Positions 5,592 to 17,368 of a stretch of 32,270 nucleotides of DNA are shown here, in pieces. The stretch is taken from assembly GCA_012719355.1 (NCBI GenBank), contig JAAYAM010000216.1, forward strand, positions 1 through 32,270, read 5' to 3'. The notes beneath the pieces were generated by a model. It saw nothing but the letters and a program-made list of their open reading frames with translations. It did no database searches and was not told the origin of the DNA. Numbering within the stretch: position 1 is the first letter of the stretch; every line of letters starts with the position of its first letter. A program made the translations under genes and the position numbers. This stretch comes from Acidobacteriota bacterium (lineage in GTDB: Bacteria > Acidobacteriota > UBA6911).

Positions 5592-5605
5592 ATGATGATG
5601 CTTGA
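5567..5605 (+). CDS. Putative 12-codon leader peptide overlapping the treS start
   Basis: ATG 5567 is preceded by AGGA (5555-5558) at 8 nt spacing and opens a 12-residue ORF (MDRQLNQLNDDA) that stops at TGA 5603-5605. It runs in another frame across the three tandem ATGs at which treS can begin (5592, 5595, 5598). treS itself has no recognisable Shine-Dalgarno, so ribosomes ending the leader could re-initiate on treS (translational coupling). Start, spacing and overlap are visible; function is inference and chance is possible. Confidence 0.3.
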   Translation: MDRQLNQLNDDA

Positions 5606-8600
5606 TACGGAATGCCCTGAGAACAGATGCCCCTGGTATAAAGACGCGATCATTTACGAACTCCATGTCCGCGCGTTCTATGACAGCGATGGCGACGGGA
5701 TAGGGGACTTCAGGGGACTGACCGAACGGCTCGACTACCTGCAAGATCTTGGAGTAACGGCCATATGGCTTCTCCCGTTTTATCCCTCTCCGCTCAAGGA
5801 TGACGGCTACGACATCTCGGATTACACCAGGATCCACCCCAGTTACGGCACGATGCAGGACTTCATCTCATTCCTTCGCGAGGCGCACCACCGTAATCTG
5901 AAGGTCATCACCGAGCTCGTCCTGAATCACACCTCGGACCAGCATTCATGGTTCAAACGCGCGAGACTGTCTCCTCCGGGAAGTTCGTTGCGCAACTTCT
6001 ATGTCTGGAGCGACACGCCGGAGAAGTTCAAGGACGCCCGCATCATATTCAAGGATTTCGAGGCTTCAAACTGGACGTGGGATCACACGGCCGGAGCTTA
6101 CTACTGGCATCGCTTCTACTCGCATCAGCCTGATCTCAACTACGACAATCCGGCAGTCCGGAAGGCGATGTTCCAGGTGGTGGATTTCTGGTTGGAACTC
6201 GGCGTGGACGGCCTCCGGCTTGACGCCGTTCCCTATCTCTTCGAGCGTGAAGGGACCAATTGTGAGAATCTGCCCGAGACCCACGCTTTCCTGAAAGAAC
6301 TGCGTGCGCACGTCGACAGCAAGTTCTCCGACCGCATGCTCCTTGGCGAAGCGAATCAGTGGCCGGAAGACGCCTCCGAATATTTCGGCGACGGAGACGA
6401 GTGCCACATGGCCTTTCACTTCCCGCTGATGCCGCGGCTCTTCATGGCGATCAGGATGGAAGACCGTTTCCCGATAGTAGACATACTCCAGCAGACTCCC
6501 TCCATCCCGCAAACGTGCCAATGGGCGCTGTTCCTGCGCAACCATGACGAGCTGACACTCGAGATGGTCACAGACGAAGAGCGCGACTACATGTACCACG
6601 TCTACGCAACCGACAACCAGGCACGCGTCAATCTGGGCATCCGGCGCCGCCTCGCCCCTCTCCTCAGCCATAACAGGAGGAAGATGGAGTTGATGAAGGC
6701 GCTTCTTCTTTCTCTGCCGGGGACACCCGTCCTCTATTACGGAGACGAGATCGGGATGGGGGACAATATCTATCTGGGAGACCGCAATGGAGTCCGGACT
6801 CCTTTCCAGTGGAGTCCCGATCGCAACGCAGGCTTCTCCAAAGCCACGCCACAGAAGCTCTACCTCCCGGTGATCATTGATCCCGAATATCATTACGAGG
6901 CATACAACGTAGAGGCACAGCAGAACAATCCGAGCTCAATGCTCTGGTTCGTCAAAAGACTGATATCCCTCAGGAAACGTTATCCAGTCGTTTCACGCGG
7001 CTCGATCGAAATTCTTCAGACCACCAACCACAAGATCTTCTGTTTTCTCCGCTCGCTCGAAAACGAGACATTTCTGTGCGTCGCAAACCTGTCCCGCTTC
7101 GCACAGGCAGTGGAAATCGATCTGTCCCGGTACCAGGGGGCGACTCCCGTCGAAGTATTCGGCCAGACGCGTTTTCCCGATGTGGGTTCGTCTCCGTATC
7201 TGCTCACCCTCGGCCCTCATTCCTTTTATTTCTTTGTTCTCGAAAGCCTGCGGGAAGCACAGGAGACGACCGAGGTGCTGGAGACAGCGCTCCCGTCCAT
7301 ATTGATCGAGACAGACTGGAAAGAAGTAATCAAGGCACGCAAGGAAGACCGGCAGCAGCTGGCGGCAGTCCTTCTCCCCTACATAAAGCAGCGCCGGTGG
7401 TTCGGCGGCAAGGCGCGCAACGTTCAGCGGGCCGTCGTGAAGAACCTGGTCAGGCTGCCGTTGCGTTCCAACGTGACGTACATCTGCCTCGTCAACATCG
7501 AATACACCGAAGGCGAACCGGAGACCTATGTCCTTCCGCTGGGATTGGCCGATGGCGCGAAAGCCGACAGCATTCTCCAGAATTCTCCAAAAGCCGCGAT
7601 TGCCTATCTCCGCTTCCGTGGAAGGAAGCAAACGACCGAGAGTCTTCTTTTCGACGCACTCTGGGACAAGGACTTCACCGATGCCCTGCTTCGCTCCATC
7701 ATGCGCAGGCGCGCCTTCAAAATGGATTCCAGCGAAATAGCGCCTGTCGCCACCGAATTCCTGACCGAGATTCTCCCTGCGTCCAAAGCCCTGCCCGAAC
7801 CGTCCATTCCGCAGCTGGAACAGAGCAACACCTCGGTGGTTTTCGGCGACAGGCTTATCATGAAATTTTTCCGGCGGCTTGAATCCGGTATCAACCCGGA
7901 TTTCGAAATCGGCCGCTATCTCTCGAGCCGGAGGTTCCCGAATACACCTCTGCTCGCAGGAGCCGTGGAATACCGGACCGCACGTGAGGAAGGGGCAACT
8001 CTGGCGATCCTGCATCAGTACGTCCGGAATGAAGGAGACGCATGGCATTTCACGCTCGACGCCCTTACCAGGTTCTTCGAGCGCGCCATGACCGAGGAGA
8101 TGAACGAACGGCTGGCGCCGCTGACAAAACAGCCGATCCTGGCGATGGCCAAATCCGAACTGCCCGAAGAAGCAATCGAGTTCCTCGGCACGTATCTGGA
8201 ATCTGCGCGCCTGCTCGGCCAGCGCACGGCGGAACTCCATCTTGTGCTGGCTTCACCGAAAGACGATCCGGCACTCGAGAGCGAACCGCTCACTGATCTC
8301 AACCGCAGGGCGATATACCACTACATCGCGGGACAGGCCGAACAGAAGATACAGATGCTGCGGGAACGCCTGAAAAACATGCCGGATGAAGTCAGGGTTC
8401 CGGCCCGGAAGGTGATTGAAAAGCGTAAGGATCTTGCTAAGTTCGCCAGAGCCATCCTGGAGACAAGAATCGAGGCGAGGCGCATCAGGTGCCACGGCGA
8501 CTATCATCTCGGCCAGGTGCTCTACACCGGCAAGGACTTCATCATCATTGACTTCGAGGGAGAACCGGCGCGACTCCTGGCCCAGAGGCGTATCAAGCAT

Positions 8601-8939
8601 TCACCGATGCGTGATGTGGCGGGAATGATACGGTCCTTCCACTACGCATCCTATGCCCCCCTCTACGGCGAGACAGGCAACATCCGGCGCGAGGACAAGA
8701 CCAGGCTCGAGCCATGGGCACGATTCTGGTACTGCTGCACGGCAGCCACTTTCCTCAAATCGTATCTGGCGTGCGCCGTCGGCGCCCACTTCCTTCCGAA
8801 ATCGAGCAAGGAACTGAAGGTGCTCCTCGACATCTCCATGCTCGAGAAAGGCATTTACGAACTTGGATACGAAATGAACAACCGCCCACAGTGGACCAGA
8901 ATTCCGCTGGAAGGGATACTGCAACTGCTCGAGAAATAG
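5592..8939 (+). CDS. treS: Trehalose synthase / maltokinase fusion (TreS-Mak)
   Basis: The 1115-residue protein fuses a GH13_16 trehalose synthase (maltose alpha-D-glucosyltransferase) to a maltokinase. The GH13 part (residues ~10-560) shows the family opening WYKDAIIYELHVRAF and a full catalytic triad: nucleophile D211 in DGLRLDAV, acid/base E253 in LLGEANQ, and D319 in RNHDEL. The C-terminal half (~580-1115) begins IKQRRWFGGKAR and carries kinase motifs HGDYHLGQ (D970) and IIDFEGEP (D987), as in Mak/Pep2. Known role: interconvert trehalose and maltose, then phosphorylate maltose with ATP to maltose-1-phosphate, the GlgE donor. It is the first gene of a five-gene operon; glgB starts 43 nt downstream. 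Three tandem ATGs occur at the start (5592, 5595, 5598); the first is annotated. Length matches known fusions. Confidence 0.96.
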   Translation: MMMLDTECPENRCPWYKDAIIYELHVRAFYDSDGDGIGDFRGLTERLDYLQDLGVTAIWLLPFYPSPLKDDGYDISDYTRIHPSYGTMQDFISFLREAHHRNLKVITELVLNHTSDQHSWFKRARLSPPGSSLRNFYVWSDTPEKFKDARIIFKDFEASNWTWDHTAGAYYWHRFYSHQPDLNYDNPAVRKAMFQVVDFWLELGVDGLRLDAVPYLFEREGTNCENLPETHAFLKELRAHVDSKFSDRMLLGEANQWPEDASEYFGDGDECHMAFHFPLMPRLFMAIRMEDRFPIVDILQQTPSIPQTCQWALFLRNHDELTLEMVTDEERDYMYHVYATDNQARVNLGIRRRLAPLLSHNRRKMELMKALLLSLPGTPVLYYGDEIGMGDNIYLGDRNGVRTPFQWSPDRNAGFSKATPQKLYLPVIIDPEYHYEAYNVEAQQNNPSSMLWFVKRLISLRKRYPVVSRGSIEILQTTNHKIFCFLRSLENETFLCVANLSRFAQAVEIDLSRYQGATPVEVFGQTRFPDVGSSPYLLTLGPHSFYFFVLESLREAQETTEVLETALPSILIETDWKEVIKARKEDRQQLAAVLLPYIKQRRWFGGKARNVQRAVVKNLVRLPLRSNVTYICLVNIEYTEGEPETYVLPLGLADGAKADSILQNSPKAAIAYLRFRGRKQTTESLLFDALWDKDFTDALLRSIMRRRAFKMDSSEIAPVATEFLTEILPASKALPEPSIPQLEQSNTSVVFGDRLIMKFFRRLESGINPDFEIGRYLSSRRFPNTPLLAGAVEYRTAREEGATLAILHQYVRNEGDAWHFTLDALTRFFERAMTEEMNERLAPLTKQPILAMAKSELPEEAIEFLGTYLESARLLGQRTAELHLVLASPKDDPALESEPLTDLNRRAIYHYIAGQAEQKIQMLRERLKNMPDEVRVPARKVIEKRKDLAKFARAILETRIEARRIRCHGDYHLGQVLYTGKDFIIIDFEGEPARLLAQRRIKHSPMRDVAGMIRSFHYASYAPLYGETGNIRREDKTRLEPWARFWYCCTAATFLKSYLACAVGAHFLPKSSKELKVLLDISMLEKGIYELGYEMNNRPQWTRIPLEGILQLLEK

Positions 8940-8982
8940 CAACACTGCACCGTTGTCGTGCCGATTACTAAAGAGAAACGTT

Positions 8983-10899
8983 ATGGCCCAGTCGAATTAC
9001 ACAATGCAGTATGGAATCAGCCTTCTTACCGACGACGATTTGTACCTTTTCAACGAGGGATCACACTTCCGCATATATGAAAAGATGGGCGCCCATCCGC
9101 TGACTGTCGGCGGCCACCAGGGCACCTACTTCTCTGTATGGGCACCCAACGCGGAGAGAGTCTCGCTGGTCGGGAATTTCAACCACTGGGATGGGATGAG
9201 CCACCTACTGCGGTCCCGCGGAGACTCGGGGATATGGGAAGGCTTCGTTACCGGCATCGGGAAGAACGAGAATTACAAATTTCATATTTCTACGAAATAC
9301 ATGGGATACGTCGTCGACAAGGCAGACCCGATTGCGTTTTTCAGCCAGAAACCTCCCGATACCGCATCGGTCGTTTGGGATTTGAATTACACCTGGCATG
9401 ATCAAACCTGGATGGAAGAGAGGCGGGCCCACAATTCCCTGCACGCTCCCATTTCGGTGTATGAGGTTCATTCAGGGTCGTGGAAGAGAGTCCCGGAGGA
9501 AGATAACCGGCCCCTCAACTACCGCGAACTGGCGCACAGCCTCGCCGAGTACGTGCTCAAAATGGGATTCACCCATGTCGAGCTCATGCCGATAATGGAG
9601 CATCCGTTCTTCGGATCCTGGGGATACCAGGTAACCGGATTCTTCGCGCCCACCAGCCGCTACGGAACTCCTCAGGACTTCATGTATTTCGTGGACTACC
9701 TCCATGGACACGGCATCGGAGTCATCCTGGACTGGGTGCCGTCGCACTTTCCCAATGACGAGCACGGGCTCACTTTCTTTGACGGAACGCATCTTTACGA
9801 GCACGCCGATCCGAGAGTCGGGATGCATCCCGACTGGAATACCTCCATTTTCAATTACGGACGCAACGAGGTCCGGAGTTTCCTGATCAGCAGCGGCCTG
9901 TTCTGGCTCGACAGATATCATATTGACGGACTGCGCATGGACGCGGTCGCCTCCATGCTTTACCTCGACTATTCGCGAAAGGAAGGCGAGTGGATCCCAA
10001 ACCGGTATGGCGGAAGAGAGAACCTGGACGCCGTCGATTTCATCCGGCGCTTCAACCAGGAAGCCTACACGGCATATCCGGACATCCAGGTAATCGCGGA
10101 AGAGTCAACCGCCTGGCCCATGGCTACCAAACCTCCGTACGTCGGCGGTCTCGGCTTCGGTTTCAAGTGGGATATGGGATGGATGCACGACACCCTGAAG
10201 TATTGCAGCCATGATCCCGTGCACCGCAAGTACCACCACAATGAGCTCACATTCCGTTCCCTGTATTCATTTTCTGAGAACTTCATCATGCCTCTCTCGC
10301 ACGATGAGGTCGTGCACGGAAAGGGATCGCTCCTGTCGAAAATGCCCGGCGACGACTGGCAGAAGTTCGCGGCCCTGCGCCTGCTGCTCGGATACATGTA
10401 CTCGCAACCCGGCAAAAAGCTTCTGTTCATGGGAGGCGAAATAGGTCAATGGCGCGAGTGGGATCACAACACCAGCCTGGACTGGAACCTTCTCAAGTAT
10501 GACCGTCACCAGGGATTGCAGAAGTGGGTTGAAGATATAAACAGGCTCTACAGAACCGAACCGGCGCTGCAGGTCGACATTGAACCTGCCGGGTTTGAAT
10601 GGGTCGACGGCGGCGACGCGGATAACAGTGTGATATCTTATTTGAGAAAGGGCCCCTCGGGTGAGACGATACTGGTCGTCTGCAACTTTACCCCTGTCCC
10701 GAGAGAGAATTATCTCGTCGGCGTCCCGGCCGGCGGGTACTGGAGAGAGATCCTGAACAGCGATGCAAAGGAGTACTGGGGCAGCGGCATCGGCAACTCC
10801 GGGGGGCTCCAGGCAAATCCGGTGGCGATGCATGGCAGGGATTTCTCGCTGGCCCTGACTCTCCCCCCGCTGGCGATCGATATTTTCAAGCTGGCGTAG
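8983..10899 (+). CDS. glgB: 1,4-alpha-glucan branching enzyme (GH13_9)
   Basis: The 638-residue protein introduces alpha-1,6 branches into alpha-1,4-glucan in the cytoplasm. An N-terminal CBM48 domain (~40-135; FSVWAPNAERVSLVGNFNHW) precedes the GH13 barrel. Catalytic residues are all present: D320 in DGLRMDAVAS, E373 in VIAEEST and D441 in LSHDEVVHG; a C-terminal beta domain follows. The frame also opens at TTG 8953, but ATG 8983 gives the usual short N terminus and has a purine-rich AAAGAGAA upstream, so it is preferred. It follows treS by 43 nt and precedes the GH57 gene by 59 nt. In this operon it branches the linear glucan made by GlgE. Confidence 0.96.
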   Translation: MAQSNYTMQYGISLLTDDDLYLFNEGSHFRIYEKMGAHPLTVGGHQGTYFSVWAPNAERVSLVGNFNHWDGMSHLLRSRGDSGIWEGFVTGIGKNENYKFHISTKYMGYVVDKADPIAFFSQKPPDTASVVWDLNYTWHDQTWMEERRAHNSLHAPISVYEVHSGSWKRVPEEDNRPLNYRELAHSLAEYVLKMGFTHVELMPIMEHPFFGSWGYQVTGFFAPTSRYGTPQDFMYFVDYLHGHGIGVILDWVPSHFPNDEHGLTFFDGTHLYEHADPRVGMHPDWNTSIFNYGRNEVRSFLISSGLFWLDRYHIDGLRMDAVASMLYLDYSRKEGEWIPNRYGGRENLDAVDFIRRFNQEAYTAYPDIQVIAEESTAWPMATKPPYVGGLGFGFKWDMGWMHDTLKYCSHDPVHRKYHHNELTFRSLYSFSENFIMPLSHDEVVHGKGSLLSKMPGDDWQKFAALRLLLGYMYSQPGKKLLFMGGEIGQWREWDHNTSLDWNLLKYDRHQGLQKWVEDINRLYRTEPALQVDIEPAGFEWVDGGDADNSVISYLRKGPSGETILVVCNFTPVPRENYLVGVPAGGYWREILNSDAKEYWGSGIGNSGGLQANPVAMHGRDFSLALTLPPLAIDIFKLA

Positions 10900-10909
10900 G
10901 GCTTTTTCC

Positions 10910-10928
10910 AAACCGGTGACGCCGGTTT
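10910..10928 (+). other. Hairpin in the glgB-GH57 spacer
   Basis: A perfect 7-bp stem, AAACCGG (10910-10916) with CCGGTTT (10922-10928), has a 5-nt loop. No T run follows and the operon continues, so it looks like an mRNA stability or processing element rather than a terminator (inference). Confidence 0.35.
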
Positions 10929-10958
10929 CCGGCCATTTCCTGGAGAAGAATTCGACCC

Positions 10959-13388
10959 ATGCCAAACTACATCTGCATTCACGGTCACTTTTATCAGCCG
11001 CCGCGTGAAAACCCGTGGCTTGAGACGATCGAGTACCAGGATTCATCCTATCCTTATCACGACTGGAATCAGCGCATTACCGCGGAGTGTTATCATCCCA
11101 ACGCCGTATCCAGGATTTTGGATGAAAAGGGGCGAATCGAAGAGATCACAAACAACTATTCGAAGATCAGTTTTGACTTCGGGCCCACTCTCATGTCATG
11201 GCTCGAGCACGAGGATCCCGAAACCTACGGCCTGATACTGGAAGCGGACCGGGAAAGCCGGGAACGCTACAGCGGGCATGGCTCAGCGATCGCACAGGGT
11301 TATAATCACGCCATACTTCCGCTCTGCAACAAACGCGACAAGATTACGCAGATCGGCTGGGGCATCAGGGACTTTCAGCATCGCTTCGGGAGAGATCCGG
11401 AAAGCCTCTGGCTGCCCGAGACGGCGGTGGATCTGGAAACGCTCGACATAATGGCACAGATGGGGCTCAGGTTTGCGATACTTGCGCCCCACCAGGCCCG
11501 CCGGGTGCGAAAGCGCGGAGAACGAAGCTGCCGCAATGTCGTTAATCAGAATATAGATCCAAGCATGGCGTATGAAATACACCTGCCGACAGGCCGCAGG
11601 CTGGCGCTGTTTTTCTACGACGGGCCGATTTCGCGCTCCGTCGGTTTTGAAAGACTTCTCAGTGACGGTGCGGCATTCGCCAACAGGCTCGTGGGAGCGT
11701 TTTCGGCTGAACGGAAGTGGCCCCAGATTGTGCATATCGCCACCGACGGAGAAACATACGGCCATCACCATCGCTTCGGAGACATGGCGCTGGCATATGC
11801 TCTCCATTCGATCGAAACAGGAAACCTGGCACGCCTTACGAACTATGGAGAGTACCTTGAAAAGCACCCCCCGACCCACCTGGTAGAAATCTGGGAAGAC
11901 AGCTCCTGGAGCTGCGCTCACGGCGTGGCACGCTGGAGAGAAAACTGCGGCTGCAACACCGGCGGCCATCCGGGCTGGAACCAGGAATGGCGTACACCGC
12001 TGCGACAGAGCCTCGACTGGCTGCGGGACCAGCTCGAAAGCCTTTATGACGACGAAGCCATGACTTATCTGAAAGATCCCTGGGCCGCCCGCAACGGCTA
12101 CATAGATGTCCTCCTCGACCGCTCTCCCGAGTCGGTCGACCGCTTTCTGGCTGCATACAGCACCCACCAGCTGAACAAGGACGAAAGGATCCGGGTCCTG
12201 AAGCTGCTCGAACTCCAGAGACACGCGATGCTCATGTACACCAGCTGCGGCTGGTTCTTCGACGATATCTCCGGGATCGAAACCGTCCAGACGCTGCAGT
12301 ACGCGGGCAGGGCTGTCCAGCTCGGAGAAGAGCTTTTTGGGAAAGACAGCATGGAGTCCACCTTCCTGGACATTCTCAAGAGTGCGCGGAGCAATGTGCC
12401 TGAACACGAAAACGGCTGCAAAATCTACGAGAAACTTGTCAAACCATCGATGGTCGACATGTCGAAAGCCGTTGGCCATTACGCCGTGAGCTCTCTCTTT
12501 CAGGAATACCCCGAGAGGTCGAAGATCTACTCTTTCTTTGTCGATCGCCAGTGCTCGAAAACGTTCACCGCCGGCAAATCCAGACTGCTGCTGGGCCGCT
12601 GCCGAATCTCCTCCAAGATTACTGAGGAATCTTCAGAGGTTGAATACGGAGTCGTCTACCTCGGAGATCACAACATCAGCGGAGGCGTGCGTCCCTACCG
12701 GCATGACCCGTCGGAGGCCGGCATGGTCGCCGACCTTGCAGATGCGTTTGAAAGGGCCGATCTGCCGGGAGTCTTCAGACTGATAGACAAGTATTTCGGC
12801 AAGTCCCTCTTCTCGCTGCGATCCCTGTTCAAAGACGAACAGCGGCGGGTGCTCGAGATCATCCTCAAGGCGACAAATGCAGACCTGGAGGAACTCAACC
12901 GCCAGTCATTCGAACGAACCGCACCGCTCATGAAATTTCTTATGTACCTGGGACTGCAACTTCCTCCCCTGTTCAAGGGAATCGCAAACGCTGTCATAAA
13001 CTCACAGCTGCGGCGCGCCTTTGATACAACCGAACTGAATGAGGAGCTGATTTCGGAACTGCTGGAATCAGCCAGATTCTGGCATATCGATCTCGATAGC
13101 GAAGGCCTGGCCTTCACGCTCCGGACCAGCATTGAGAAGATCGCGAGAGAGGCTCATGATCGGCCTGGAGATCTGCCGCTGTTGAGAAGACTGATCGGTG
13201 CGATCCGGCTCACATCAAAACTCCCGTTTGTCATAAACTTTTACCGCACCCAGAACAGCTACTACGATGTTTACATCCACAGCTACCCTAAGTTGAAATC
13301 GGCAGCAGAACAGGGAGAGGAGGCGGCCGATGCATGGGTCAATGAATTCAGGCAGCTGGGAGAGCTGCTTTCGATCAGAGTTGAGTGA
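10959..13388 (+). CDS. GH57 family glycoside hydrolase with DUF3536-type C terminus
   Basis: An 809-residue protein of the GH57 (alpha-amylase/alpha-mannosidase) superfamily. The N-terminal catalytic domain opens with HGHFYQPPRENPW (motif 1), has SLWLPETAVD with candidate nucleophile E154 (motif 3) and HIATDGETYGHHH with candidate acid/base D263 (motif 4). The larger C-terminal part (~330-809) resembles DUF3536 proteins. GGAGAAG lies ahead of ATG 10959. No signal peptide is visible, so it should be cytoplasmic. It sits between glgB and glgE, with only 4 nt to glgE, so it is surely co-transcribed with the GlgE pathway. Substrate and reaction are unknown: a 4-alpha-glucanotransferase, an amylase trimming the glucan, or a second branching-type enzyme are possible. 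Family assignment is firm, function is not. Confidence 0.88.
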   Translation: MPNYICIHGHFYQPPRENPWLETIEYQDSSYPYHDWNQRITAECYHPNAVSRILDEKGRIEEITNNYSKISFDFGPTLMSWLEHEDPETYGLILEADRESRERYSGHGSAIAQGYNHAILPLCNKRDKITQIGWGIRDFQHRFGRDPESLWLPETAVDLETLDIMAQMGLRFAILAPHQARRVRKRGERSCRNVVNQNIDPSMAYEIHLPTGRRLALFFYDGPISRSVGFERLLSDGAAFANRLVGAFSAERKWPQIVHIATDGETYGHHHRFGDMALAYALHSIETGNLARLTNYGEYLEKHPPTHLVEIWEDSSWSCAHGVARWRENCGCNTGGHPGWNQEWRTPLRQSLDWLRDQLESLYDDEAMTYLKDPWAARNGYIDVLLDRSPESVDRFLAAYSTHQLNKDERIRVLKLLELQRHAMLMYTSCGWFFDDISGIETVQTLQYAGRAVQLGEELFGKDSMESTFLDILKSARSNVPEHENGCKIYEKLVKPSMVDMSKAVGHYAVSSLFQEYPERSKIYSFFVDRQCSKTFTAGKSRLLLGRCRISSKITEESSEVEYGVVYLGDHNISGGVRPYRHDPSEAGMVADLADAFERADLPGVFRLIDKYFGKSLFSLRSLFKDEQRRVLEIILKATNADLEELNRQSFERTAPLMKFLMYLGLQLPPLFKGIANAVINSQLRRAFDTTELNEELISELLESARFWHIDLDSEGLAFTLRTSIEKIAREAHDRPGDLPLLRRLIGAIRLTSKLPFVINFYRTQNSYYDVYIHSYPKLKSAAEQGEEAADAWVNEFRQLGELLSIRVE

Positions 13389-13392
13389 TTCG

Positions 13393-15405
13393 ATGGATTC
13401 GGAAAACCGCACTATCATCAACAGTCATCCGCCGAGGCCCGTCATAGAAAATGTCGAGCCGGAGATCGAGGCCGGACGGTTTCCCGCAAAGAGAATTCTT
13501 AACGACAAGGTGAATGTCCGTGCCGATATCCACGCCGACGCGCACGACCTTCTTGCGGCCGCCGTGCTCTACCGGAAAGCAGGAGAGGAAGAGTGGAGTG
13601 AATCTCCTATGACTCTCCTCGTCAACGACCGCTGGGAGGGGTCATTCGTCGTCTCACAGCTTGGATTGTATGAATTCACTATCGAGGCGTGGATCGACCG
13701 GTTCGCCTCATGGAAGAGCCGCCTGCTGAAGAAAGTAGCTGCAGGACAGGAGGTTTCTCAAGACCTGCTGATCGGAGCTGAGCTGATCCGGCATGCAGCC
13801 GACAGAGCTTCCAGGGAAGACTCGCTATTGCTGCAAAACTGGGCCGAGTCTCTGAGCGATCCCAGGCTCAACCTTCCAACGAAAACCGATCTTGTCTCAA
13901 ATAGCATGTTTGATTTGCTGATGGGCCGCTATCCGGACCGGAGCGCCTCGGCAAGCTATGACAGGATTCTCACAATCACGGTCGACCCGGAGATAGCCAG
14001 ATTCAGTTCATGGTACGAGATGTTTCCGCGTTCGGCTTCCGCAGAACCGGGGAAGCATGGCACATTCAGGGACTGCCGGAAAAGGCTGCCGTATATCGCA
14101 GGGATGGGATTCAACGTGCTTTACCTTCCTCCGATTCACCCCATAGGCCGTACCCATCGAAAAGGGAGGAACAACACCCTCCAACCCGACCCGGATGCAC
14201 CGGGCAGCCCCTGGGCGATAGGATCAGACGAAGGAGGACATACCGCCATCCATCCTCAGCTCGGCTCCATGGATGACTTCCGGGATCTCATCCGTAAGGC
14301 ACGCGAAACGGGCATCGAGGTTGCTCTCGACCTGGCTTTCCAGTGTTCTCCCGATCATCCCTGGATCAAAGAACACCCCGGGTGGTTCCGGCGCCGGCCG
14401 GACGGGTCGATCCAGCATGCCGAAAACCCGCCCAAGATTTATGAGGACATAGTCCCGCTCGACTTTGAAACAGACGACTGGAAGGCTCTCTACAAGGAAC
14501 TGTTCGGCGTGGTTATGCTCTGGATTGCACAGGGGGTGCGGGTTTTCCGCGTCGACAACCCGCACACCAAGCCCTACAGCTTCTGGGAATGGCTGATACG
14601 CGAAGTCAAGCAGGCTCACCCCGAAGTGATCTTCCTGTCGGAAGCATTCACCCGTCCCAAAGTTATGTATCGTCTGGCCAAGATCGGGTTCAGCCAGTCG
14701 TATACCTATTTCACGTGGCGCCATACGTCTCACGAACTGCGCACATACCTTACCGAACTGACCCGGCCCCCTCTGGCCGAATATTTCCGGCCGAACCTGT
14801 GGCCCAATACCCCCGACATCCTCCCTGTTCACCTGCAGTTTGGAGGACGCCCCGCATTTCAGATGCGCCTCATCCTGGCGGCCACCCTCGGATCAAATTA
14901 CGGGATCTACGGCCCGGCATTCGAACTGTGCGAGAACACGCCGATTGCTGTCGGTAAAGAGGAGTACCTTGATTCAGAAAAATATGAGATTCGTCACTGG
15001 AACCTGCAGCAGTCGGGGGCGCTCTCGCCTATCATCACCCGCATAAACACCATCCGCAGGGAGAATCCCGCGCTTCAAAGCGACAGGAACCTGCGTTTCC
15101 ACGAGGTCAGCAACGACCAGCTTCTTGCATACAGCAAACATACGGATGATCTGTCCAACATCATACTCACCGTCGTCAACCTGGATGCAGATAATGTCCA
15201 GTCGGGATTCATCAAACTTCCTATGGAAGAATTGAACATTACGACATCCAGGCCTTTCCAGGTTCACGACCTGCTCAGCGCAAGACGCTACCTCTGGAGC
15301 GGGACCAGCCACTATGTGGAAATCAATCCGCACAGCATGCCGGCTCACGTTTTCCGGCTCCGTCGTTACGTGCGCAGCGAGAAGGATTTCGACTATTATC
15401 TCTGA
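13393..15405 (+). CDS. glgE: Alpha-1,4-glucan:maltose-1-phosphate maltosyltransferase (GH13_3)
   Basis: GlgE transfers maltosyl units from alpha-maltose-1-phosphate to the non-reducing end of alpha-1,4-glucan. The 670-residue protein has the N-terminal GlgE domain (~1-195; starts PRPVIENVEPEIEAGRFPAK), then a GH13 barrel (from ~204, FSSWYEMFPRS) with LPPIHPIGRTHRKG. The nucleophile is D388 in FRVDNPHTKP and the acid/base is E417 in FLSEAFTRPK; both motifs are GlgE-specific. Length is close to characterised actinobacterial enzymes. The frame also opens at ATG 13330 inside the GH57 gene, but ATG 13393, 4 nt after the GH57 stop, fits the family N terminus and is preferred; GAGTGA at the gene junction is a modest ribosome site. 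glgM follows after 23 nt. Confidence 0.96.
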   Translation: MDSENRTIINSHPPRPVIENVEPEIEAGRFPAKRILNDKVNVRADIHADAHDLLAAAVLYRKAGEEEWSESPMTLLVNDRWEGSFVVSQLGLYEFTIEAWIDRFASWKSRLLKKVAAGQEVSQDLLIGAELIRHAADRASREDSLLLQNWAESLSDPRLNLPTKTDLVSNSMFDLLMGRYPDRSASASYDRILTITVDPEIARFSSWYEMFPRSASAEPGKHGTFRDCRKRLPYIAGMGFNVLYLPPIHPIGRTHRKGRNNTLQPDPDAPGSPWAIGSDEGGHTAIHPQLGSMDDFRDLIRKARETGIEVALDLAFQCSPDHPWIKEHPGWFRRRPDGSIQHAENPPKIYEDIVPLDFETDDWKALYKELFGVVMLWIAQGVRVFRVDNPHTKPYSFWEWLIREVKQAHPEVIFLSEAFTRPKVMYRLAKIGFSQSYTYFTWRHTSHELRTYLTELTRPPLAEYFRPNLWPNTPDILPVHLQFGGRPAFQMRLILAATLGSNYGIYGPAFELCENTPIAVGKEEYLDSEKYEIRHWNLQQSGALSPIITRINTIRRENPALQSDRNLRFHEVSNDQLLAYSKHTDDLSNIILTVVNLDADNVQSGFIKLPMEELNITTSRPFQVHDLLSARRYLWSGTSHYVEINPHSMPAHVFRLRRYVRSEKDFDYYL

Positions 15406-15428
15406 GAAAGCCGGGGTGACAGCGAGCG

Positions 15429-16619
15429 ATGAAGATCCTGATTCTGACCAATGAATACCCGCCGAACGTTTACGGCGGAGCAGGTGTCCATGTTGAGTAT
15501 CTCGTGCGCGAACTGGCCCGGGCGGATGCGTCTTCCAGCATTCAGGTGCTCTGTTTCGGAGACCAGGAGATGGACGGATCGAATCTGCGGGTCCGCGGAG
15601 TTGACCGGATAATGCAGTCGCCGGACACAGAACTGCGCTATCCCGAGCTGCAGAATACCCTGGTCAGGCAACTCTCGATGATCGGCTGCGCCGACGCGGC
15701 CGACATAATCCATTGCCACACGTGGTATACACACCTTGCCGGCTGCCTGCTCAAGCAGCTGCTCGGCGGACGGCTCGTCCTCACCACCCATTCCCTGGAG
15801 CCGCACCGTCCCTGGAAAGCCGAACAGCTTGGACCGGCTTACAACGCCAGTTCGTGGATGGAAGAAACCGCATACCGTAATTGCGACGGAGTCATTGCTG
15901 TCTCGAAATCGATGAAAGAGGACGTACGGCGGCTTTACAAAGTGCAGGAAGAGAGGATCGGAATAATTCATAATGGCATCGACGCGACAGAATACCGTCC
16001 CCGGACTGAACCGGAGGTCCTGCCTCGCTACGGCATCAATCCACAGAAGCCCTACATACTCTTTGTGGGACGCATGACCCGGCAAAAAGGGATACTCCAC
16101 CTGATCAATTCGGTGCCGTACTGTTCTGCGGATGTGCAGATGGTGCTGTGCGCGGGAGCGGCCGACACCAAAGAGATGGAAGCCGAGATATTCAGCAGGG
16201 TGGAGGAGGTCCGGCGAGAAAGCCGCAAAGAAATCGTCTGGGTTCCGCAAATCGTGCCGAAACCGGACATATTCGCCCTGTACAGTCTGGCCGAACTCTT
16301 CGTCTGCCCGTCGGTCTACGAGCCTTTCGGCATCATCAATCTCGAGTCGATGGCATGCGGCACTCCGGTCGTCGCGTCAAAGGTCGGCGGGATACCGGAA
16401 ATCGTAGTTGATGGGGAAACCGGCCTGCTCGTCCCCTTCGATCCTGAAAACACGGACAGGTTTTCGCGCGACCTGGCTTCCGCCATCGATTCCCTGCTGG
16501 CTTCACCGGAAAGGCTGGCAGCAATGGGAAGGAAATCGCGGGAGCGTGTCAAACGGTACTTCAGCTGGCAGAGTATTGCGCGCCAGACATGGGAATTCTA
16601 CCGGCGCCTGGCGTCATGA
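15429..16619 (+). CDS. glgM: Glycogen synthase of the Corynebacterium type / maltose-1-phosphate synthase (GT4)
   Basis: A 396-residue GT4 glycosyltransferase. It opens MKILILTNEYPPNVYGGAGV, typical of this family rather than GT5 GlgA, has the donor-site FVGRMTRQKG and the E-x7-E motif (E298 in YEPFGI, E306 in NLES) followed by MACGTPVVAS. Characterised actinobacterial relatives make alpha-maltose-1-phosphate from ADP-glucose and glucose-1-phosphate, feeding GlgE; older annotations call them glycogen synthase (glgA). Position directly behind glgE supports the GlgM role. No ADP-glucose pyrophosphorylase gene (glgC) is in the window. It is the last gene of the operon and converges on a small gene whose stop is 4 nt away, with no clear terminator between them. 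Confidence 0.92.
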   Translation: MKILILTNEYPPNVYGGAGVHVEYLVRELARADASSSIQVLCFGDQEMDGSNLRVRGVDRIMQSPDTELRYPELQNTLVRQLSMIGCADAADIIHCHTWYTHLAGCLLKQLLGGRLVLTTHSLEPHRPWKAEQLGPAYNASSWMEETAYRNCDGVIAVSKSMKEDVRRLYKVQEERIGIIHNGIDATEYRPRTEPEVLPRYGINPQKPYILFVGRMTRQKGILHLINSVPYCSADVQMVLCAGAADTKEMEAEIFSRVEEVRRESRKEIVWVPQIVPKPDIFALYSLAELFVCPSVYEPFGIINLESMACGTPVVASKVGGIPEIVVDGETGLLVPFDPENTDRFSRDLASAIDSLLASPERLAAMGRKSRERVKRYFSWQSIARQTWEFYRRLAS

Positions 16620-17000: not shown

Positions 17001-17351
17001 TCATTTCTTTTCGGTGGGATAGCCTGCCTCCAGCCACGTATCCATACCCCCAAGAAGGGGATGGACATCATTGAATCCGAACGTTGCAAGTTCTTCCGCC
17101 ACACGGGCGCTTGATCCTTCGTTCGGTCAAGTGCAGTACGTCACAATGGTGTGACCCCGCTTCAGGCCGCCCACGTGTGACCGGACATCATCGGCGGGAA
17201 TCCGGACAGCTCCAGGGAGCCTTACGTCGGATTCAGACCACGCCTTGGGGTTACGGGAATCGACAAACAGGATCGACTCTCCCCGCTCGAAACGCCCATA
17301 GGCATCATCCACCGTAATCCTCGTTGGTTCATGAGGTACCGGTTGTCTCAT
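17001..17351 (-). CDS. Rhodanese-like sulfurtransferase, candidate selenoprotein (in-frame UGA at codon 75)
   Basis: A single-domain rhodanese of 116 residues if the TGA at 17127-17129 is decoded. Start ATG 17351 is 11 nt behind AAGGAG. Before the TGA: FVDSRNPKAWSESDVRLPGA and GHTIVTYCT, i.e. the active-site strand with catalytic Cys73. After it, in the same frame, PNEGSSARVAEELATFGF and then LLGGMDTWLEAGYPTEKK, a normal rhodanese C terminus, with stop TGA at 17001-17003. In the many homologues with a CxCPNE-type loop the interrupted position is a second Cys, so TGA replaces TGC and would give a Cys-Thr-Sec motif. There is no other lesion, and ribosome site, terminator and downstream hairpin are intact. 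Selenocysteine insertion is an inference; a recent nonsense mutation leaving a 74-residue stump is the alternative. No sel genes are in the window. Likely role: cytoplasmic sulfur or selenium transfer, or thiol redox chemistry. Confidence 0.8.
17077..17126 (-). promoter_or_regulatory. Putative bacterial SECIS element
   Basis: Directly after the UGA the minus-strand RNA can fold into a nested hairpin. The outer stem is CCGAAC (17126-17121) with GUUCGG (17082-17077). The middle stem is CAAG (17113-17110) with CUUG (17090-17087). The upper stem is CGCC (17109-17106) with GGCG (17100-17097). The apical loop is CGUGU (17105-17101). The loop begins 21 nt after the UGA, the upper stem has 4 bp and G is the second loop base. 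This meets the bacterial SECIS consensus as I recall it (16-37 nt spacing, upper stem of at least 4 bp, G in the first two loop bases). The pairing was read by eye, not folded by program. Confidence 0.55.
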
Positions 17352-17362
17352 TTGTCTGTGTA

Positions 17363-17368
17363 CTCCTT
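17363..17368 (-). promoter_or_regulatory. Shine-Dalgarno of the rhodanese gene
   Basis: AAGGAG on the minus strand, 11 nt before ATG 17351. A strong, intact ribosome site argues that the UGA-interrupted gene is still translated. Confidence 0.65.

Follow-up and report, generated by a model that had tools for sequence, protein, structure and literature searches.

A rhodanese reading frame that carries a single in-frame TGA raises the question of whether this codon ends the protein, marks a damaged gene or is translated, and if so, as which amino acid. The frame lies on the minus strand of an Acidobacteriota metagenome contig (GCA_012719355.1, contig JAAYAM010000216.1), whose analysed stretch of 32,270 nucleotides is referred to here as the window. 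A preliminary description, made from the letters of the sequence, had proposed a candidate selenoprotein on the grounds that frame, terminator and Shine-Dalgarno of a 116-residue rhodanese were intact (the strand was left unstated), that the TGA stood two residues after Cys73, and that coding resumed beyond it with a rhodanese C terminus. All of these observations were confirmed, and on the sequence comparisons given below the gene very probably encodes a selenoprotein in which the UGA at residue 75 would be decoded as selenocysteine (Sec). The proposal is supported by the Sec machinery of the source genome, the conservation of the UGA column, the co-occurrence of the TGA form with SelA, and a SECIS hairpin that the preliminary description did not contain.

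A rhodanese frame that continues past its TGA

Translation of the minus strand gave a complete rhodanese gene with one in-frame TGA in the loop TYCT-TGA-PNEGSSARVA (Table 1). When the TGA was read as a residue, the Pfam Rhodanese model PF00581 matched residues 14–108 with 38.5 bits (cut-off 22.2), which means that the rhodanese domain continues through the TGA. The protein begins right at this domain, and no signal peptide is apparent, in contrast to several relatives (e.g., L043, L057, and L059). In the comparison with its nearest orthologue (L049), identity was higher after the TGA (27/41 residues) than before it (32/72), and the third codon position accounted for most of the mismatches downstream of the TGA (10, 7, and 20 at the first, second, and third position, respectively), both of which indicate that selection on the protein persists behind the TGA.

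Under Sec decoding, UGA terminates translation when selenium is scarce, and the gene might accordingly be read as coding for a short protein of 74 residues with the UGA as a regulated, selenium-sensing stop; we consider this very improbable, as selection at the protein level acts on the part following the UGA, in which a large share of the domain lies. Many further in-frame TGA pairs are present elsewhere in the window, nearly all of them surely by chance.

Table 1 Features of the rhodanese locus and of the neighbouring gene run (positions in the window)
Feature	Position	Strand	Basis
Predicted Sec-containing single-domain rhodanese gene	17001..17351	minus	Translation, Pfam PF00581, NCBIfam NF041203 best match
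Start codon ATG of the rhodanese gene	17351-17349	minus	Sequence
Stop codon TGA of the rhodanese gene	17003-17001	minus	Sequence
UGA codon, predicted selenocysteine (Sec75)	17127..17129	minus	TGA/Cys homologue column, genome Sec machinery
Cys73 codon, presumed catalytic nucleophile of the rhodanese loop	17133..17135	minus	Translation, conservation, family knowledge (PMC10135228)
Shine-Dalgarno GGAG, 11 nt upstream of ATG	17363..17366	minus	Sequence
Putative bacterial SECIS hairpin, CGCC / CGUGU loop / GGCG	17097..17109	minus	Isolated folds, conservation, published model
Alpha-amylase/maltokinase fusion, glycogen branching enzyme-like protein, GH57/DUF3536 protein, GlgE, glycosyltransferase	5592-16619	plus	

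The UGA column and the selenocysteine machinery

Homologues were sampled across the phylum, first in 100 relatives and then in 396 Acidobacteriota genomes, where many rhodaneses with one in-frame TGA were found. In the set that was read base by base, the column of residue 75 was TGA in 66 distinct homologues and TGC or TGT in 21, in agreement with the second Cys expected at this position by the preliminary description; four more distant rhodaneses hold something else there, while in the CxC-type relatives the column is UGA or Cys only. Cys73 was conserved in all aligned homologues. A TGA at the identical column in so many homologues, with Cys in others, is not placed there by chance, and since many families of the phylum have retained it, neither a sequencing-read error nor a newly arisen nonsense mutation can account for it, in line with the earlier argument that a random mutation would be unlikely to hit the Cys position. 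That the source genome is a metagenome assembly might favour the reading of the gene as a pseudogene, or of the TGA as a Cys codon that was misassembled. This reading is already refuted, and is extremely improbable, as conservation across families places the TGA at the exact codon in all 66 copies together with a matching downstream hairpin, and the sequence after the TGA is better conserved than that before it.

Among the nearest orthologues (49–58% identical), L020/L049, L053, L055, and L056 have TGA and L054 has TGT; as L054 belongs to a SelA-positive genome (G214), its Cys indicates that Sec is not indispensable. On a tree of 87 of these short domains, in which few forks were well supported, the Sec/Cys label changed seven times in comparison with about 19 times in shuffles, so that Sec and Cys swap repeatedly and yet are inherited.

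The Sec form follows SelA. In the sample of 396 genomes, SelA was present in 54 of the 55 genomes with the TGA form (the only exception found, G340, has tRNA-Sec) and absent from 40 of the 47 with stop-free homologues only (present in 7), a group that includes a few rhodaneses of greater distance that lack CxC (e.g., that of G052). The association (Fisher p 6e-20) is uncorrected for kinship; a paired kinship test on the tree yielded two contrasts that are independent of each other; they almost always point the expected way but are too few to reach significance, and the weight therefore lies on the pattern and not on the p-value. Within genus g49, the 12 TGA genomes all had SelA, whereas G207 and G240, which are stop-free, had neither SelA nor a tRNA-Sec over the cut-off. 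SelA-less genomes (G207 and G240 of g49, G044 and many others of family f18) bear Cys-type copies, while their SelA-bearing relatives bear TGA. The genomes of g49 and f18 with and without SelA thus offer a natural experiment on the replacement of Sec by Cys, and the phylum-wide swap, tracking the Sec machinery, is a clean one on the reason for placing selenium beside the cysteine of a sulfurtransferase.

The preliminary description had named a search for selA, selB, selC, and selD as a check, and all four are present in the source genome: SelA (555 bits), SelB (398 bits), SelD (366 bits), and the selC tRNA-Sec (68.7 bits), which has a UCA anticodon and a long Sec-type variable arm. The selD gene has an in-frame TGA of its own (L051 1531-1533, G000:C126) in the motif GUASK, which matches the UxxK motif tabulated for Sec-containing SelD, and its product is itself predicted to be a selenoprotein. 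Judged by these genes, the source genome decodes UGA as selenocysteine. Since it is a draft metagenome assembly (4.57 Mb, 377 contigs, 4.2% contamination), the sel genes and the window contig could in principle stem from different cells; the GC content of the contig (57.4% vs. 53–57%) is similar, and the relatives support the link between the two.

A hairpin downstream of the UGA

A small hairpin starts 17 nt after the UGA, with a stem of four pairs and a loop of five bases that begins 21 nt after the UGA and has G at its second position; the stem is limited to four pairs because the fifth would be G-G. These values lie within the stem (4–16 bp), loop (3–9 nt), G (first two loop positions), and spacing (16–37 nt, here 21 nt) limits of the published bSECIS model (PMC13188914). 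The stem together with the loop G was found in 58 of the 66 TGA copies and in 1 of the 21 Cys copies, the loop G alone in 66/66 and 1/21, respectively. In addition, the Ala codon in the 5′ arm was GCC in 65/66 TGA copies, compared with 8 of the 14 Ala codons of the Cys copies, a preference that indicates a constraint on the RNA and not on the protein. Among 30 copies hand-picked for diversity, two stem pairs changed (one from C-G to U-A, another from G-C to G-U), the cells with double changes exceeded all 500 shuffles as well as the slid versions, and the structure paired 92% of the cells vs. at most 61% when slid.

Although the hairpin appears when the region is folded in isolation, the stability of these folds does not stand out clearly from that of shuffles, as may be expected of such a short element, and an Rfam search of the window returned nothing at gathering score. 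By its conservation and its fit to the model, the predicted SECIS hairpin is independent support for the Sec reading. A lower stem (CCGAACG/CGUUCGG) is present in the window sequence; it was not kept after the UGA in relatives and was excluded from the SECIS.

UGA readthrough is known in general, and the codon could stand for a different amino acid (Trp under code 4, or one inserted by near-cognate readthrough), but this is hardly conceivable here, as the relatives hold Cys and not Trp at the column, other genes of the window use TGA as stop, as does the rhodanese gene itself, and the genome has the complete Sec machinery, with a SECIS behind the codon.

Active-site loop, known relatives and genomic context

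The window protein shares the fold, the DxR motif, and the strand-end catalytic Cys with the single-domain thiosulfate sulfurtransferases GlpE/PspE, and the Cys of the rhodanese loop is generally the persulfide-forming nucleophile (PMC10135228). Described active rhodaneses have catalytic loops of the type Cx4R/T or Cx5R (PMC10135228), whereas the loop of the window protein (C-T-U-P-N-E-G-S) is Cx6S, with the predicted Sec at the second position after Cys73, and exceeds the Cx4R loop of L050 by two residues. The protein is hence in PF00581 by profile and outside the canonical active-loop class, and with a loop longer than described its substrate and reaction may differ.

In the proposed mechanism, SelB bearing Sec-tRNA would bind the small hairpin just past the UGA, and Sec would be inserted at residue 75 to give a full-length rhodanese with the loop Cys73-Thr-Sec75-Pro-Asn-Glu. 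Cys73 would take up sulfane sulfur, as other rhodaneses do, Sec75 would attack the Cys73 persulfide, by which sulfide would be released or the sulfur passed on, and the Cys73-Sec75 selenenylsulfide that remains would be reduced by thioredoxin or a low-molecular-weight thiol. From this chemistry we tentatively propose, with somewhat less than even confidence, that the enzyme is a redox-coupled persulfide handler and not a plain thiosulfate:cyanide sulfurtransferase.

In known selenoenzymes the attack is normally made by Sec, and Sec75 could have another role (thiol-peroxidase-like activity, reduction of selenium or arsenic oxyanions, or selenium delivery to SelD), in which case Cys73 would be the resolving residue. 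The additional two residues of the loop in comparison with L050 would fit such a role, arsenate reductases and phosphatases whose loops are longer are found among the rhodanese folds (PMC10135228), and rhodaneses have been linked to selenium transport (PMC9369223). However, no sel, ars, or peroxide genes were present beside the inspected orthologues, and Cys73 is kept in every copy, as suits the nucleophile of a rhodanese, so that we regard a selenoprotein with such other chemistry as rather unlikely.

In the broad sense the kind is already known, and the window gene adds one to the CxU rhodanese selenoproteins. Predictions of rhodanese selenoproteins go back to the Sargasso Sea survey (PMC1088965) and were also made in the GOS survey (PMC2398784), as the preliminary description had rightly stated, and the CxU form is even a named family (NF041203 rhodanese_LYCAU, ‘rhodanese-related (seleno)protein’) that appears in reviews of 2022 (COG0607 form 2, CxU; PMC9312934) and 2026 (Rhodanese-like form 3; PMC13188914). 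NF041203 was the best family match of the window protein, at 92.4 bits against a curated cut-off of 115, which makes the protein a divergent relative and not a member; L057, of the same phylum, passes the cut-off with 125.2 bits. Both the family and the window protein have Cys-x-Sec in the active-site loop (CTU, residues 73–75) with Sec interchangeable with Cys, and they differ in the motif (TYCTU vs. LYCAU). The Sargasso Sea and GOS rhodaneses (PMC1088965, PMC2398784) and forms 1, 2, 4, and 5 (PMC13188914) likewise have a predicted Sec in the rhodanese domain and a bacterial SECIS; unlike the CxU of the window protein, forms 1, 2, and 4 have UxxS or UxxG motifs, and form 5 (TsoB, NF045694) differs as a two-Sec rhodanese/DsbD fusion (PMC13188914). 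Automatic annotation tends to end genes of this kind at their UGA and thereby to miss them, and the window gene falls below the cut-off of the very model that would rescue them.

The rhodanese gene stands alone between a plus-strand glycogen/trehalose gene run, a compact set for glycogen and maltose-1-phosphate (Table 1), and a divergent gene for an outer-membrane efflux protein. No operon partner was shared among seven orthologous regions whose reading frames were inspected by eye, and the neighbourhood points to no substrate for the window rhodanese. A close orthologue was absent from all nine other genomes of the genus, where the best matches were a DedA-rhodanese fusion (G001) and weaker rhodaneses elsewhere; this patchy presence suggests loss or transfer.

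Cys-Thr-Sec rhodanese domains were also observed as C-terminal parts of DedA/VTT-type membrane proteins (L023, L024, L026, L027, L030-L032, L034, L037, L039, L060, L064-L066, and others); the codon is TGA where the genome uses Sec and TGC/TGT in SelA-less relatives, and we did not find this selenoprotein fusion named in the open-access literature. In L033 and L035, a Sec-rhodanese domain whose loop (YCTU or YCAU) holds the TGA is C-terminal on a sodium/hydrogen-exchanger-type (CPA) antiporter. It is conceivable, if doubtful, that the Cys-Thr-Sec rhodanese constitutes a widespread Acidobacteriota module (free cytoplasmic, signal-peptide/lipoprotein-like, DedA/VTT-fused, and cation/proton-antiporter-fused), maybe a selenium-dependent sulfane-sulfur/persulfide system with an unusual Cx6S loop, whose fusion forms and cytoplasmic subgroup have not been separately described. 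In the rhodanese L108 (G190:C35:104000-104800), the TGA occupies another position of the loop (VYCSGPT-TGA-HSS, UxxS); this rhodanese, which has a second Sec-rhodanese gene of G190 at a distance of ~1.7 kb, is probably the known form 1.
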